DNA from: Magnetospirillum sp.
GTDB lineage: Bacteria; Pseudomonadota; Alphaproteobacteria; CACIAM-22H2
Direction of reading: 5' to 3'
Assembly: GCA_027532905.1 (NCBI GenBank)
Contig: JAPZUA010000002.1
Location: 310,001 to 374,000, forward strand
DNA length: 64,000 nt
Part shown: positions 33,755 through 39,475 of the stretch, one piece after another
Layout: the number at the start of each line of letters is the position of its first letter
How positions within the stretch are numbered: the stretch's first letter is position 1
Program-made: the position numbers and the translations under genes
Notes under the pieces: model-generated
Told to the model about the DNA's origin: nothing
Databases searched by the model: none
Seen by the model: the letters and a program-made list of their open reading frames with translations, nothing else

Positions 33755-33831
33755 CGGAGCGTAGCGCAGCCCGGTAGCGCATCAGTCTGGGGGACTGGGG
33801 GTCGTGGGTTCGAATCCCGCCGCTCCGACCA
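33755..33831 (+). tRNA. tRNA-Pro (GGG anticodon)
   Basis: The 77-base gene folds into a full cloverleaf. The acceptor CGGAGCG pairs with CGCTCCG, the D stem is GCGC/GCGC, and the anticodon stem TCAGT/ACTGG encloses the loop CTGGGGG (anticodon GGG). The T arm has GTTCGAATC, and encoded ACCA ends the gene. An integrase gene follows 117 bp later, so the 3' end is the probable attachment site of the element. Confidence 0.95.
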
Positions 33832-33868: not shown

Positions 33869-33947
33869 CGACGTTTTCGGGCTTGCGTCTGGTTTCCACG
33901 TAGTTTCCACTCAGTTTCCAACGGACTTGCCGTTGGAGGTTGGCTGG

Positions 33948-35111
33948 ATGCCCAAAAGCGCGATGTTGCCCGTATTGCCTGGAATCAAGATTGTCTCGAA
34001 GACGCTCGCCGACGGGACGGTGAAGACCTTCTATTACCATCGAGCTACGAAGCTTGCCCTTGGCTCGGATCGGGCCCGCGCGGTCGCTCGCGCGGCCGAG
34101 ATCGAAATGCTCGCTGGACCCGAACCGCGGCGCCGGCAGGCCGGGGCGCTGAGCGACGTCATCGCCAAATTCAAGGTCTCGCCAGAGTATGTCGGGCTTG
34201 CCGAGGGGACAAAGACGCTCTGGCTCCCTTTCTTGACGGACCTTGAGGAGCGGGTCGGTGACTGGGCACCAAAGATGTTCTCCCGTGCGATGGCCAGCAA
34301 GTTCAAAGCGACCCTGATTGCCAAGCACGGGTCGGGATCGGCCCGGAACCGCTTCAAATGCTATTCGCGCCTATGGAACTGGGCGGTCCAGAACGGCCAT
34401 ATCGAAGTCGTGAACCCGTTTACGGCACCCGGCTCGTTTGCGAAGGGGTGGCATAGCAAAAAGGCAAAGCCAATCTGGCGGCGCAATCACGTTGAAGCCT
34501 TTCTGACCGCCACGCGCGAAGTCAATGTCGGCGGAAACCCGGCCTTGGTCACGCATAAGGCTACTCGGACGGAAGGCGTTCCGGACGATATGCGTCTCGC
34601 ATTTTTGCTGGCGCTTTTCACGCTGCAGCGGCGGGGTGACATTTTAAGGATTACCGGCGATAAAATTCGTGTCGATAATCACGGACGTTGGTGGATGAAG
34701 CTCAAGCAAGAAAAGACCTGGGCCGACGTCGAGTTCCCTGTCCATAAGCTCCTCCGGGCCGAAATCGAGCGCCAGAAGATCAATCCGGGAGAGAAGCGCC
34801 CGCTTGTGAAAACGAAGAGCGAGGGGATGTTCGACGATCGGAACTTCAGTCGGAAATTCCGGACTTGGCTGGAGGCGGCAAACATCCGCAGCCTCAACTT
34901 CCATGCCCTGCGGCGCAGCGGCATGGTTTGGTTAGCCGAGGCCGGTGTCAGTGCCCCGCGAATTGCTGGCCTCTCCGGGCACTCGATTGCCGTGACCCAG
35001 AAAATTCTCGACGAATACATCGTTCGGACGAAGGAGCTCGCCGAGGCGGCGATCGACGCGTTCGAACGGATCACTCAAGACGCTTTTCCAGTGCGCGTCG
35101 GACGAAGGTGA
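33948..35111 (+). CDS. int: Tyrosine-type site-specific integrase
   Basis: The 387-residue recombinase has an N-terminal arm-type region and a SAM-like core domain around residues 60-180. The catalytic domain has Arg in FTLQRRGDILRI, HxxR in NFHALRRSGMVWLAEAG, His in GLSGHSIAVTQ and the nucleophile Tyr in ILDEYIVRTKE. It is adjacent to a tRNA 3' end, the classic target of this class, so it should integrate and excise this element. The start is at MPKSAM; seven more residues are possible. It overlaps the next, convergent gene by 41 bp. Confidence 0.92.
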   Translation: MPKSAMLPVLPGIKIVSKTLADGTVKTFYYHRATKLALGSDRARAVARAAEIEMLAGPEPRRRQAGALSDVIAKFKVSPEYVGLAEGTKTLWLPFLTDLEERVGDWAPKMFSRAMASKFKATLIAKHGSGSARNRFKCYSRLWNWAVQNGHIEVVNPFTAPGSFAKGWHSKKAKPIWRRNHVEAFLTATREVNVGGNPALVTHKATRTEGVPDDMRLAFLLALFTLQRRGDILRITGDKIRVDNHGRWWMKLKQEKTWADVEFPVHKLLRAEIERQKINPGEKRPLVKTKSEGMFDDRNFSRKFRTWLEAANIRSLNFHALRRSGMVWLAEAGVSAPRIAGLSGHSIAVTQKILDEYIVRTKELAEAAIDAFERITQDAFPVRVGRR

Positions 35112-35673
35112 GGTCATCGTTGGGTGCCCCTGACTCGAACTCAGAGGCGACCTGTCCTCGCGCCAATCGTTCGATTTCAAATCGTGACCAGCGAAGATGG
35201 CGGCGCCGGCTGCTGCGATTTGCTGATGGTATGGGATGCAGCATAGGGGCGTAGCGCTGCAAAAAGGTTTTTGAGCTGACTTTGAAAATTTGAGCCGCTT
35301 CCGTGGTTGTCAGAATAGGCGCTTGATCGGTTGGGGGAGTTTGCTTGGTGGTGTGTAACTGTGATCGACGGATCGCCGGACGCGCGTGCTTTGAAGCGAG
35401 AAGAATTTTGTAGAGATGAAAAAGATCGACCTCCTCGACGACACGATTTAGAGGGGCGTCCGGTCGAAGATTTTTCGACTGAAGAGTTACCGGACCTGAG
35501 CTTGTCGCAGTTCGAGCGACGGAGGTGTCTAGATAGCTTTGTTTCTTTGGATTGGGTAAGGTCTTAGCTGCCTGCGCTTTGGCACAAGTCGATGCCTTCC
35601 AAAGTCCTTCGACAGGGCTTAGGTGGTTGTGTGAGATATCAATCTCACTTGGCTTGGTGCGTACGAGCTTCAC
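35071..35673 (-). CDS. Excisionase-like HTH DNA-binding protein
   Basis: The 200-residue protein has a MerR/excisionase-type HTH near the C-terminus: ILTTTEAAQIFKVSSKTFLQ (about 120-140), then RRRHLRWSRFEIERLARGQ. The N-terminal 110 residues are low-complexity, rich in Ser, Thr, Lys and Pro, and unlike any domain I know; the true start may be further in. Placement beside the integrase suggests a recombination directionality factor. A copy of the 23-bp repeat lies 23 bp before its start. Confidence 0.55.
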   Translation of the reverse strand: MKLVRTKPSEIDISHNHLSPVEGLWKASTCAKAQAAKTLPNPKKQSYLDTSVARTATSSGPVTLQSKNLRPDAPLNRVVEEVDLFHLYKILLASKHARPAIRRSQLHTTKQTPPTDQAPILTTTEAAQIFKVSSKTFLQRYAPMLHPIPSANRSSRRRHLRWSRFEIERLARGQVASEFESGAPNDDLTFVRRALEKRLE

Positions 35674-35695
35674 AAGCCGAGAATGGGGCCGGCGT

Positions 35696-35718
35696 CTTAA
35701 AATCCGGCGCGGCGGAAG
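35696..35718 (+). repeat. 23-bp repeat copy A
   Basis: CTTAAAATCCGGC...GGCGGAAG, upstream of the excisionase-like gene. It differs by one base from copy B at 38855. An AT-rich patch (35720-35775) follows that probably carries the leftward promoter of the HTH gene. Confidence 0.8.
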
Positions 35719-35859
35719 AAAAAACCGGAATACACTAAATTTATAGGATATTTTATATAAGTGCTATGCTTTCCCATAGGACGAAGTTTTGTAGCCTTCT
35801 GTTGCAGAGCTTTGCTCACCCCTCCCCACTGCTCTTCGTTTAGGCTGCGGTAACTCCGG

Positions 35860-38667
35860 CTACCTCTCCAAACCGAGCTCCTTCCGGCGCCGCATTTGTA
35901 GTGTTTCCGCGATGTCGCCTTTGCAGCTTGGTGTTGTTGTCCGCGGGGGAGGAATGTTACCGCCCGTCTCGATCTTTGGCGCCGCCGGGCCTGCCGATTT
36001 CGATGCGATTTTTGGCTGGGATTTAGACTCGCTCTTTTGATGACTCCCGTGTTTGGCAGGCTGCTGCACAAATGTGCGAGTTGGCTGATTGCTCGTGCGT
36101 GTTGCGGGAGTGTCGCCCCCGGTGTCGTGCTGACGAGTAGCCGACGTTGACGTAGTCGAGGAAAGAGAATTTGGCGACGAGATACCGGAAATCCTATTCC
36201 AAAGGCTTCGAATGACGCTCGCAGCACCGTCAAAGATCCCATTCTTGGCTGTATGTGTCTCTGGCGAAGTCGCGTTGCTTGGTGTTCCCTCGGAATGCTT
36301 CGGATTATTCGATGAGCTATTGTCCGATGTTTCCGCCGACGCCAAGTTCGGAGGCGGGTGGAAAGCGGCGATTGCATCTTCATGCTTCTTTTGGAGGGAG
36401 GGCGATAGTGCGACGAACTTCCTTTCGATCGGAGTTTCATTTCTTGACGTGTCGATGAAACGGAGAAGTGTCGAGAGGCTAACAGGACGATCCACGCGCG
36501 TAGGGTCGCCCTCGGGATGAGGACGAGATCGAGAGGCCAAAAGTTGCAGTACGGTGGAATTCGAGTGTAGCCTGCTGCGGGCACGCCGAATTTCCTCGAA
36601 AACTCTTCCGAGAGTGTTGTCGTTTCCATAGAGGCTACCGTGGCGACCGTCGGCAGCAAGCCGTAACAGCCCGCCCGGCTTTTGAAATTCCATGGTATTT
36701 TGCCGACCGGTCAACTTGACGGGTGAGAGGCCGTGGCGAGTGAGTATCTCGGCCACACGTGTCGCGCCCAAGCTAAGCGTCGTAGTTTCAATGAGCCCTT
36801 CTACAAGTTTTCTCCAGAACCGAACCTCATAGGTCGTTTCGTCCAAGTTTTTTTCGGATTTGGATGTTGAATTGACGATGTGCCAACCAGACGCGCGACC
36901 AAAGTGTAGCTGAATATCGACATAATCGCCGATCGCGATGGCGACACTGTCAGAGCATCGGCGAACGACGGGAATTTTCTTGTCATTCTCCAACTTCGGT
37001 GGAATCCATTTTGGCTTCAGACGCTGCTTCAGTTCCTGGAACACCCACTCGGGATCGACCTCTTCGAGTGTCGCAGGCCCTTTGGCAAACTCGCCCATGA
37101 AGTTATCTTGAACTTCTTCGCGCGCCATCTCTTCTTTGTACTTTTCCAAGGATGCGAGCGCCGACGCAACGGCCGCACCGGCACGCGAGAAACGCCAAAC
37201 AACATCGATCAATTCCAACTGAGCGTCTTTCCCTTCGGAGTCGTGCAGAACGGTTACTTTTCTATTTTGGGCGCTGAAGATGGATTTGAGGAATTCCGCG
37301 CACGCCGCAACTGCATTGCGTGCTGCATCGACGTTTTTGACGCATTCAAATCTTCCCGAAAATGTATGTTCTTGTGGTTCGAAAGTTTCGAGCAGAATGT
37401 CCAATTCCTCTGTCGTGCGTGCAATTACTTCAAGGTCTTGGGTATGGGCTCGAATGCAGCTTGTGAGGATATCTGCAACACGCGGCGGCACGGAACGCTG
37501 TGGCGCGCCTGCGTCGCGGCGCAACAGCGCCGAGCGAGCCGGTCCAAGATGCTCGCCGGGTGGGCTGAGAATACCAATCTCGGTCGCGCGGCCGGGATAG
37601 AACAGTCGCTCGATCGGTTTGTCACCACGGCGTGCTACTTGTTCGGCGACTTCGTTGACGATCTCTGCATATCGGCGCCGAAGATAGGTCACCCAGTCGG
37701 GGCCTTGGAGGTTTCGGTTCTTTGTTGGCGCAAAAACCCAATCTGGAGCGCTGCTGCGTTCGAGATTCGCATGAGAAGGCATTGTTAGTATCGGCCGCGT
37801 ACCGATCACAAAATGCGCGTGAAAATTTCTGCTGTCGCCCTGTTCGTCCGGTTTGTGTGTAGCCGCGAACCAGCCCAGTCTCTGGCGTGTGAATTCCTGA
37901 CCAAACCGCTCGATTATCGCACGACGATCGGCCGACGAGACCCAATGTGGAAGCTCAATGATGATCCTGTCCTGGACGCGGGAGTCGCGTCTGTTTTCTG
38001 CGATATTCGCGGCGAGCCAGAACGCCTCGCGTTGCTTCGGCGAGTCGCCGATATTTCCGGTGCAAATAGGTCCCCGTTCGTCGCGTTCGATGTCATTGGC
38101 AGTTTTGGAATAGCCGCCCGAGCGCTCGATGTATCGTTGATGCTGCCGACAGCGATCAAGCGCACGCTTTGTTGCATTGAATTCGCGACCGACATGTGAC
38201 GACGTCTTCGCGATATTCGAAGCCATCAGTTGACCGGCTGGCGTCTTCAGAAATGCGTGCCCGGACGGGAGAGACCACATCCGGGCGCCGCTATGGCGTT
38301 TTGCCTCCGACAGGGTTTTGAGGTGGAAAATCTCGGTGCGGGTTGGCCATAGTCCGACGCGATGGCCGCGGCGGACCTCGCGGGGGATCTGAGGGGCTGG
38401 TTTCCGCGACGTCGATGCCATCCGGAGATGAAAAGTCGATGCACCGACGCTCGTTGGTGCTGTTCCGAGCGACAGGGCGCGATAGCCGGGGCCTGATGTG
38501 GGCGAGGTGGTGCGTTTTGATGGTTGCTTTAGAGCGGCTGTCCGCAGTCGAATTCCGGGGCCGCGCGGGCCTCGTAGCATCTTGTTGATGGCTTCCCACT
38601 CGGCGGACTCGTCGAGGCGGCCTGCGCGTGGGATCTCCAGTTCATCGTTCGAATGCTTACGCGCCAT
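35860..38667 (-). CDS. MobA/MobL-family relaxase
   Basis: The 935-residue protein should nick the element's transfer origin and pilot the strand. The relaxase core lies at about 170-300, with NRRDSRVQDRIIIELPHWVS and His271 in FAATHKPDEQGDSRN. The paired metal-binding His283 and His285 are in FHAHFVIGTRP. A catalytic Tyr is not certain; Tyr179 (QRYIERSGG) is a candidate. An unusual Arg/Pro/Ser-rich extension of about 160 residues precedes the core. The C-terminal 600 residues include helical parts and a low-complexity Ser/Thr/Pro tail and no primase or helicase motif I can see. No type IV secretion genes are in the window, so it would need a helper. Confidence 0.82.
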   Translation of the reverse strand: MARKHSNDELEIPRAGRLDESAEWEAINKMLRGPRGPGIRLRTAALKQPSKRTTSPTSGPGYRALSLGTAPTSVGASTFHLRMASTSRKPAPQIPREVRRGHRVGLWPTRTEIFHLKTLSEAKRHSGARMWSLPSGHAFLKTPAGQLMASNIAKTSSHVGREFNATKRALDRCRQHQRYIERSGGYSKTANDIERDERGPICTGNIGDSPKQREAFWLAANIAENRRDSRVQDRIIIELPHWVSSADRRAIIERFGQEFTRQRLGWFAATHKPDEQGDSRNFHAHFVIGTRPILTMPSHANLERSSAPDWVFAPTKNRNLQGPDWVTYLRRRYAEIVNEVAEQVARRGDKPIERLFYPGRATEIGILSPPGEHLGPARSALLRRDAGAPQRSVPPRVADILTSCIRAHTQDLEVIARTTEELDILLETFEPQEHTFSGRFECVKNVDAARNAVAACAEFLKSIFSAQNRKVTVLHDSEGKDAQLELIDVVWRFSRAGAAVASALASLEKYKEEMAREEVQDNFMGEFAKGPATLEEVDPEWVFQELKQRLKPKWIPPKLENDKKIPVVRRCSDSVAIAIGDYVDIQLHFGRASGWHIVNSTSKSEKNLDETTYEVRFWRKLVEGLIETTTLSLGATRVAEILTRHGLSPVKLTGRQNTMEFQKPGGLLRLAADGRHGSLYGNDNTLGRVFEEIRRARSRLHSNSTVLQLLASRSRPHPEGDPTRVDRPVSLSTLLRFIDTSRNETPIERKFVALSPSLQKKHEDAIAAFHPPPNLASAETSDNSSSNNPKHSEGTPSNATSPETHTAKNGIFDGAASVIRSLWNRISGISSPNSLSSTTSTSATRQHDTGGDTPATRTSNQPTRTFVQQPAKHGSHQKSESKSQPKIASKSAGPAAPKIETGGNIPPPRTTTPSCKGDIAETLQMRRRKELGLER

Positions 38668-38725
38668 TTTCTCCTCAATTCTCTGGCATCAGCGTTGCCG
38701 CCAACTGCGGCAACGCGTAATTGCG

Positions 38726-38758
38726 CCCGCTTTCGGGCCAGAATGGCCCGAAAGCGGG
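38726..38758. repeat. 33-bp perfect palindrome, candidate oriT
   Basis: CCCGCTTTCGGGCCA (38726-38740), GAA, then its exact complement (38744-38758). It begins 58 bp before the relaxase start codon in the 352-bp divergent gap (38668-39019), which also has a second, imperfect hairpin at 38766-38784 (CCGC-TAAC-GCGG core). Relaxases of this family usually act at an inverted repeat next to their own gene. Confidence 0.7.
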
Positions 38759-38854
38759 AAATCGGTGTCCGCTAACGCGGCCACACGTTGCTTGTGCGGG
38801 TGCTTCGCGGCTGCGCCGGTATTTGCCCGTTGCGCCTTACATAACCCCAATGTT

Positions 38855-38878
38855 CTTAAAATCCGGGGCGGCGGAAGC
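38855..38878 (+). repeat. 23-bp repeat copy B
   Basis: CTTAAAATCC, three G, then GCGGCGGAAG plus C. Same orientation as copy A, 3.16 kb away across the relaxase gene. Confidence 0.8.
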
Positions 38879-38929
38879 AAATCCAAACAATCGGGCCCGT
38901 GCCGGGCTCGAAGCCGGTTCTCAAAACGC

Positions 38930-38953
38930 GCTCCCGCCGCTCTGGATTTTAAG
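38930..38953 (-). repeat. 23-bp repeat copy C (inverted)
   Basis: Read leftward CTTAAAATCCAGA...GGCGGGAG, 20 of 23 bases like copy B. B and C face each other with 51 bp between them, 66 bp before the start of the 151-residue ORF. Confidence 0.75.
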
Positions 38954-39019
38954 AGAGTCGAGGCAATACTTGCATTGCGCCGCGCCAATTCATGGCGCGG
39001 GTGGACTTAGGAGATAGCG

Positions 39020-39475
39020 ATGTCGAAGAAAGTCGATATGCCCCGGCAGCCTGCGGAAACTACCGATCTGGCTATTCCAGTATCACAATCAACCACCGCC
39101 CTCGAACCGGCGCCGGCCTCGGGGGGATTTGACGGGTTGGACAGGGTCGAAATGGCGCCGATGACAGCGGCGGAGGAGCGGGCCGAGCGTCGTGCACGAA
39201 GAGCCGAAGCGGACTTCGTCAGAACGGAGGCGCGCAAAAACAAGTATCAACGCAAGCTGTATGAAATTGAGCGAGATGCCCGAGCGAGAGGGCGTGCGAC
39301 GGAAACGCAGAAGAATCTCGCCGCGACTATATCTCTCCAGGAGATGCTCGCGGGAGATCTGCGCGCACGCGGATTCACGATGGTACGAATCAAAAAGCTG
39401 TTTGCGCTTTTGTCGCGCACGCCATTGACTGCCGAGCAGGTCGCGCAACTGATTGCGTCACATCAAATAAAGTAG
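39020..39475 (+). CDS. Hypothetical 151-residue protein, divergent from the relaxase
   Basis: I recognise no family. Residues 1-50 are Pro/Thr/Ala-rich; about 50-105 form a strongly charged, probably coiled helix (ERAERRARRAEADFVRTEAR); the end is a small mixed domain (RARGFTMVRIKKLFALLSRT, EQVAQLIASHQIK). AGGAG at 39008-39012 is a good RBS. Position beside the candidate oriT suggests an accessory mobilization protein that binds the palindrome or the 23-bp repeats. Confidence 0.65.
   Translation: MSKKVDMPRQPAETTDLAIPVSQSTTALEPAPASGGFDGLDRVEMAPMTAAEERAERRARRAEADFVRTEARKNKYQRKLYEIERDARARGRATETQKNLAATISLQEMLAGDLRARGFTMVRIKKLFALLSRTPLTAEQVAQLIASHQIK

Follow-up and report, generated by a model that had tools for sequence, protein, structure and literature searches.

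Three copies of a short repeat lie around a relaxase gene in the 64-kb window, which here means the whole stretch of DNA that was analysed. Which genes do these copies serve, and what could act on them?

The repeat copies and the island around them

The copies A (35696–35715, +), B (38855–38874, +) and C (38934–38953, −) had 0 mismatches to CTTAAAATCCNNNGCGGCGG, and the pattern CTTAAAATCC-N3-GCGGCGG was exact in all three. Shuffled windows gave a mean of 0.34 matches at ≤3 mismatches, and three matches were reached in 0 of 100 shuffles. The copies are therefore real, being exact pattern matches far above the shuffle expectation. The similarity between A and B extended over 28 nt with 93% identity. 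B and C formed a 25-nt inverted repeat, 88% complementary and 51 nt apart.

The orientation relative to the copy's own gene was identical for A, B and C. Box A faces the HTH ORF (35673, −), B faces the relaxase gene (ATG 38667, −), and C faces the 151-aa ORF (39020, +). In the sense of the next gene, every copy in the window reads CCGCCGC-N3-GGATTTTAAG. A preliminary description had correctly placed A before the excisionase-like gene and C before the 151-residue ORF; it had set B, too, upstream of the 151-residue ORF, and the pairing of B with the relaxase gene had been missed. The features are listed below.

Table. Coordinates of the island features, boxes and predicted promoter elements in the window
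Feature	Position	Strand	Basis
tRNA-Pro(ggg), attL of E1	33755–33831	+	ARAGORN
E1 tyrosine integrase, no box upstream	33927–35111	+	PF00589, E = 2e-11
200-aa ORF, HTH_17, probable excisionase/regulator, convergent with int	35071–35673	−	HTH_17, E = 0.0027, below Pfam cutoff
−10 hexamer CATTCT, promoter A, predicted	35680–35685	−	offset 10 from box
Box A, promoter box of HTH/Xis-like gene	35693–35718	−	PWM score 37.8, highest of all
MobA/MobL (MOBQ-like) relaxase, 935 aa	35860–38667	−	PF03389, E = 1e-8
Predicted oriT: small hairpin, core GCGTAATTGCGCCC (38715–38728), large hairpin	38700–38764	.	conserved before the family's other relaxases
−10 hexamer TATGTA, promoter B, predicted, weak	38838–38843	−	offset analysis
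Box B, relaxase promoter box, oriT within leader	38852–38877	−	pattern match and PWM
Box C, promoter box of 151-aa accessory gene	38931–38956	+	pattern match and PWM
−10 hexamer AATACT, promoter C, predicted	38965–38970	+	offset analysis
151-aa probable relaxosome accessory protein	39020–39475	+	no Pfam family

These genes belong to an island that we call E1. The tRNA-Pro 3′ end (about 55 bp) recurs at C2:384432–384487, equivalent to window coordinates ~74432–74487, with 98% identity over 56 nt. This copy is 40.7 kb away, so E1 seems to continue past the end of the window. The E1 relaxase matched NF041496 (MobQ) with E = 3.5e-15 and 56.3 bits, under the curated cutoff of 200; it is related to MOBQ and is not an NF041496 equivalog. 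The 151-aa protein shared 35% identity over 112 aa with the accessory protein of the integrative mobilizable element (IME) G015a. No VirB4 (PF03135) was found in the whole genome (assembly 95.7% complete). E1 thus has a recombinase with att sites, a relaxase with a predicted oriT, and no mating-pair apparatus of its own, indicating that it is an IME. Because the genome has no VirB4 family gene, a helper is needed.

The tRNA-Pro island (window 33788–64000 plus C2:374001–384487) seems to be ~40.7 kb long and to enclose an IS3 element, a carbonic anhydrase and a nar respiratory cluster. More remnants of the tRNA-Pro 3′ end, at C2:400189, C2:441987 and C8:13609, suggest tandem insertions.

Boxes on other islands and in related genomes

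The whole genome (4.26 Mb) contained nine box sites at ≤1 mismatch, all on contig C2 and all within three IMEs: three in the window, three at 23.3–24.0 kb, one at 1055.6 kb, and two at 1072.7–1072.8 kb. The reversed pattern, used as a control, gave 0 matches at ≤1 mismatch. The preliminary description would have been refuted by many tens of copies spread over the genome with no connection to mobilization genes, and this outcome was not found. In all three IMEs, single boxes preceded the relaxase gene, the accessory gene and either xis or int. The third box preceded the integrase gene in E2. E3, 22.6 kb long, is inserted in tRNA-Glu and has a 48-bp att repeat without mismatches; its third box preceded a 63-aa HTH_17 gene adjoining the tRNA, 17 kb from the mob genes. 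In both E1 and E3, a box preceded the xis-like gene but int lacked one.

The genes common to the three islands were those for relaxase, accessory protein and integrase. The relaxases of E2 and E3 were 30–34% identical to that of E1, and the accessory proteins of the three islands were unrelated. Integrases of box-bearing islands fell into different groups, with a serine recombinase in G015b. The order, orientation and spacing of the boxes were not conserved between E1 and E2 or E3.

The HTH protein and the 151-aa protein had been proposed as regulators. Neither is likely to be the common box binder, since the accessory proteins of IMEs sharing the box are unrelated and the relaxase–accessory–int module of E2 showed no HTH gene. 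It had also been suggested that A and B are recombination sites through which the relaxase module is gained or lost, and their direct orientation and 28 nt of 93% identity agree with this. However, orientation and spacing were not kept in E2 and E3, and the islands have their own recombinase and tRNA att sites (48 bp and perfect in E3, about 55 bp in E1). As the integrases and tRNA att sites explain mobility, the suggestion is unsupported, and we give it almost no credence.

E3 (L014:11086–19563, L015:320–6213) carries Gabija (GajA/GajB), Lamassu (LmuA/LmuB) and a type III restriction-modification system. The right end of E2 (L013:11534–11583) is a 50-bp copy of the tRNA-Met 3′ end. The intact tRNA-Met that was found is on another contig (G000:C6:171632–171706), and a search for the left end of E2 did not find it.

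Relatives of the box occurred in the same genus. The sister species G019 had one copy, located before an AlpA gene. IMEs of G015 and G018 encode relaxases 34–49% identical to that of E1 and have diverged boxes at matching places. The G015a relaxase is 49% identical to that of E1, yet its boxes are diverged, whereas the E2 and E3 relaxases are only 30–34% identical and their boxes are nearly the same. This mismatch indicated that the box does not follow the relaxase. The G015 IMEs carry Gabija and a type I system.

A PWM was then used, with a building set that includes five diverged G015 and G018 sites. Outside this set, it found three sites at matching places in sister-species IMEs, all followed at offset 10 by a −10-like hexamer: L027:6159 before a serine integrase gene (score 20.3), L025:5020 before xis/int (weak, 12.0), and L027:9383 before an accessory gene (weak, 9.1). 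The last two scores are in the range of background hits, and the support for these sites is their position and the −10 hexamer. At L027:4246–5908, a large serine recombinase by tRNA-Glu replaces the tyrosine integrase in an IME of the same relaxase family, with the box upstream.

Among 385 genomes of the class, more than one box match was found only in the own genome, and the relaxase profile (E ≤ 1e-25) also matched the own genome only. The family is therefore narrow in this sample. A plasmid search with the box returned short chance matches only, and a viral contig search returned 10 single matches and no multi-copy contig. MobA/MobL loci of Azospirillum, Indioceanicola and Thalassospira had no TTTTAAG in the intergenic stretch scanned.

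Predicted promoter architecture and oriT

An xANNNT hexamer was present at offset 10 or 11 downstream of TTTTAAG in 13 of 18 copies. This offset was first seen in the very sequences on which it was then tested, and 3 added copies had been picked partly for such a hexamer. Non-overlapping offset pairs had the hexamer in at most 3 of 18 copies, and 0 of 20,000 shuffles reached 13. For the 15 earlier copies, which were picked by the box alone, the values were 10/15 at offset 10 or 11 and at most 2 elsewhere. A convincing −10 hexamer at the expected place was missing in three copies (G019 alpA, E3 xis and G018b accessory). TTGACA-like −35 hexamers at spacing 16–18 matched at 1–3 of 6 positions, no better than random.

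A −10 hexamer at fixed spacing with no −35 hexamer suggests a promoter box, with the repeat occupying roughly −45 to −23 in the placement of a class II activator site. The accessory, xis and int genes have a short leader before the start codon, mostly with a ribosome-binding site. The repeat very probably serves excision and mobilization genes as a common promoter box. The earlier proposal, in which gene starts are preceded by a common operator or accessory-protein site, was supported, and it can be sharpened to a promoter box that precedes three genes and recurs in two further IMEs.

The HTH ORF of E1 has GTG 35673 as its only usable start, and transcription from promoter A is predicted to begin at this very position. 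The ORF may therefore be leaderless, or it may be served by another promoter. An upstream ATCCTATAA is common to copy A of E1 and the G019 copy, which could point to a second promoter further upstream.

Boxes placed in this way would also suit a repressor. They could be operators of a host- or element-encoded repressor that silences the xis, int, relaxase and accessory promoters, with release triggering transfer. The box overlaps the core promoter, and the absent −35 hexamer fits a repressor or an unusual sigma factor too. However, because the −35 hexamer is absent, these promoters should be weak without help. Furthermore, no shared regulator gene was seen in the three islands, with E1 beyond the window and the left part of E2 only skimmed. 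We consider a repressor unlikely.

Less likely still is a reading of the box as the −35 element recognised by a dedicated alternative (ECF- or phage-like) sigma factor, whose own type of −10 element would follow after 10–11 nt. In its favour, the box is asymmetric, the −10 spacing is fixed and SGWTT lies at −35. Against it, the conserved CCGCCGC (−42 to −36) is located upstream of where region 4 normally makes contact, the −10 hexamers resemble those of sigma-70 (CATACT, TATTCT, CATAAT), and no further box at ≤1 mismatch occurs elsewhere in the genome.

The region between the relaxase and accessory genes also contains the predicted oriT. Box B is upstream of this oriT, which lies within the relaxase leader. 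The relaxase genes of the family are preceded by a hairpin, GCGCAATWACGC or a close variant, and a small hairpin; the stem sequences differ, and the first hairpin is not clear in G015b. The diverged relaxase loci have the hairpin-CGCAATTA-hairpin layout in common with the predicted oriT at 38700–38764. MOBQ/TraA regions of Rhizobium and Thalassobaculum plasmids likewise have a relaxase gene divergent from a small mobilization gene, and an oriT core GGGCGCA-NN-TACG (GGGCGCACTTACG or GGGCGCATATACG at the TraA loci) followed by a small hairpin. Unlike here, no box copies were seen in the intergenic regions scanned. The RSF1010 nick region, TAAGTGCGCCC, differs at one base from TAATTGCGCCC here. 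A literature search with the letters of the oriT core returned noise only.

As the predicted oriT core is separate and conserved, the box is not the nick site, and a reading of B and C as the oriT itself was rejected for this reason. The repeats might still be part of the oriT or relaxosome as sites bound by the relaxase or by the accessory protein, and B and C do occupy the usual MOBQ oriT location. This is highly improbable: the hairpin core conserved before the family relaxases is distinct from them, the third copy is not next to the mob genes, being 17 kb distant in E3, and the box does not track relaxase divergence.

A candidate activator acting in trans

We propose, with a probability of about 0.6, that the 20–26 bp repeat is a promoter-overlapping regulatory box of a genus-restricted IME family, through which one trans-acting activator would co-control excision and mobilization. 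The box, CTYCCGCCGC-N3-SGWTTTTAAGACG in the transcription sense, would replace the −35 element, with the −10-like hexamer 10–11 nt downstream. Since a box precedes the relaxase, accessory and xis or int genes in each element, one factor would control both processes. Although the box is common to the three IMEs, their accessory, HTH and integrase proteins are not alike, so the factor would be supplied in trans, by a conjugative helper or by the host. A factor acting in trans on all the islands would be the simplest reading of these sequences. The islands would stay quiescent until the factor appears, as in SGI1/AcaCD and MGI/SetCD. An activator is favoured over a repressor or a sigma factor with moderate confidence.

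That the factor comes from a conjugative helper is plausible but unproven. Neither regulator nor helper was found in this genome. In genomes of the genus, the one VirB4 locus that turned up (G015:C13) had no GC-rich box in the 60 kb read and one stray TTTTAAG (L090:6248), and two G022 loci with distant VirB4-family matches had no TTTTAAG. The helper remains hypothetical, as the T4SS locus from the same genus lacks the box. The box would be a handle for finding both the regulator and the helper.

How IMEs sense helpers has been worked out in detail for only a handful of systems, and most of these are gammaproteobacterial. In this genome, three islands that have diverged from one another, including at least one with anti-phage systems, appear to obey one signal, which suggests that this signal tells them when to move. 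If this is true, the boxed IME family under a helper activator includes carriers of anti-phage defence genes.

In the IMEs that have been studied, induction comes from helper regulators (PMC5704250, PMC4207636, PMC4605294), which a review of IMEs describes as needed for RDF expression (PMC5704250). There is a close likeness to the AcaCD boxes of SGI1 and MGIVmi1, IMEs that depend on an IncA/C helper: there too, a common motif lies near −35 before RDF (xis) and mobilization genes of unrelated islands (PMC4207636, PMC4605294). Such a motif before xis/RDF and mob genes of unrelated islands, as in AcaCD- and SetCD-type control, was found here. A bolder version, which we offer only tentatively, is that an undescribed activator from a conjugative helper uses a new non-palindromic box to co-activate the IME family, as an independent counterpart of AcaCD/SetCD hijacking.

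The int gene of SGI1 has no box, as in E1 and E3. The SGI1 motif is the inverted repeat GCCCTAAAAGGGC; the motif here differs, and so do the hosts. Compared with AcaCD boxes, the box here is nearer the start (−45 to −23), and the relaxase is of the MobA/MobL type. In contrast to SGI1, the relaxase gene here also has a box, and in E2 the integrase gene has one too. For SetCD-activated MGIs such as MGIVflInd1, the activator of a helper ICE turns on int and RDF of the IME (PMC5704250); these are gammaproteobacterial, unlike the islands described here.
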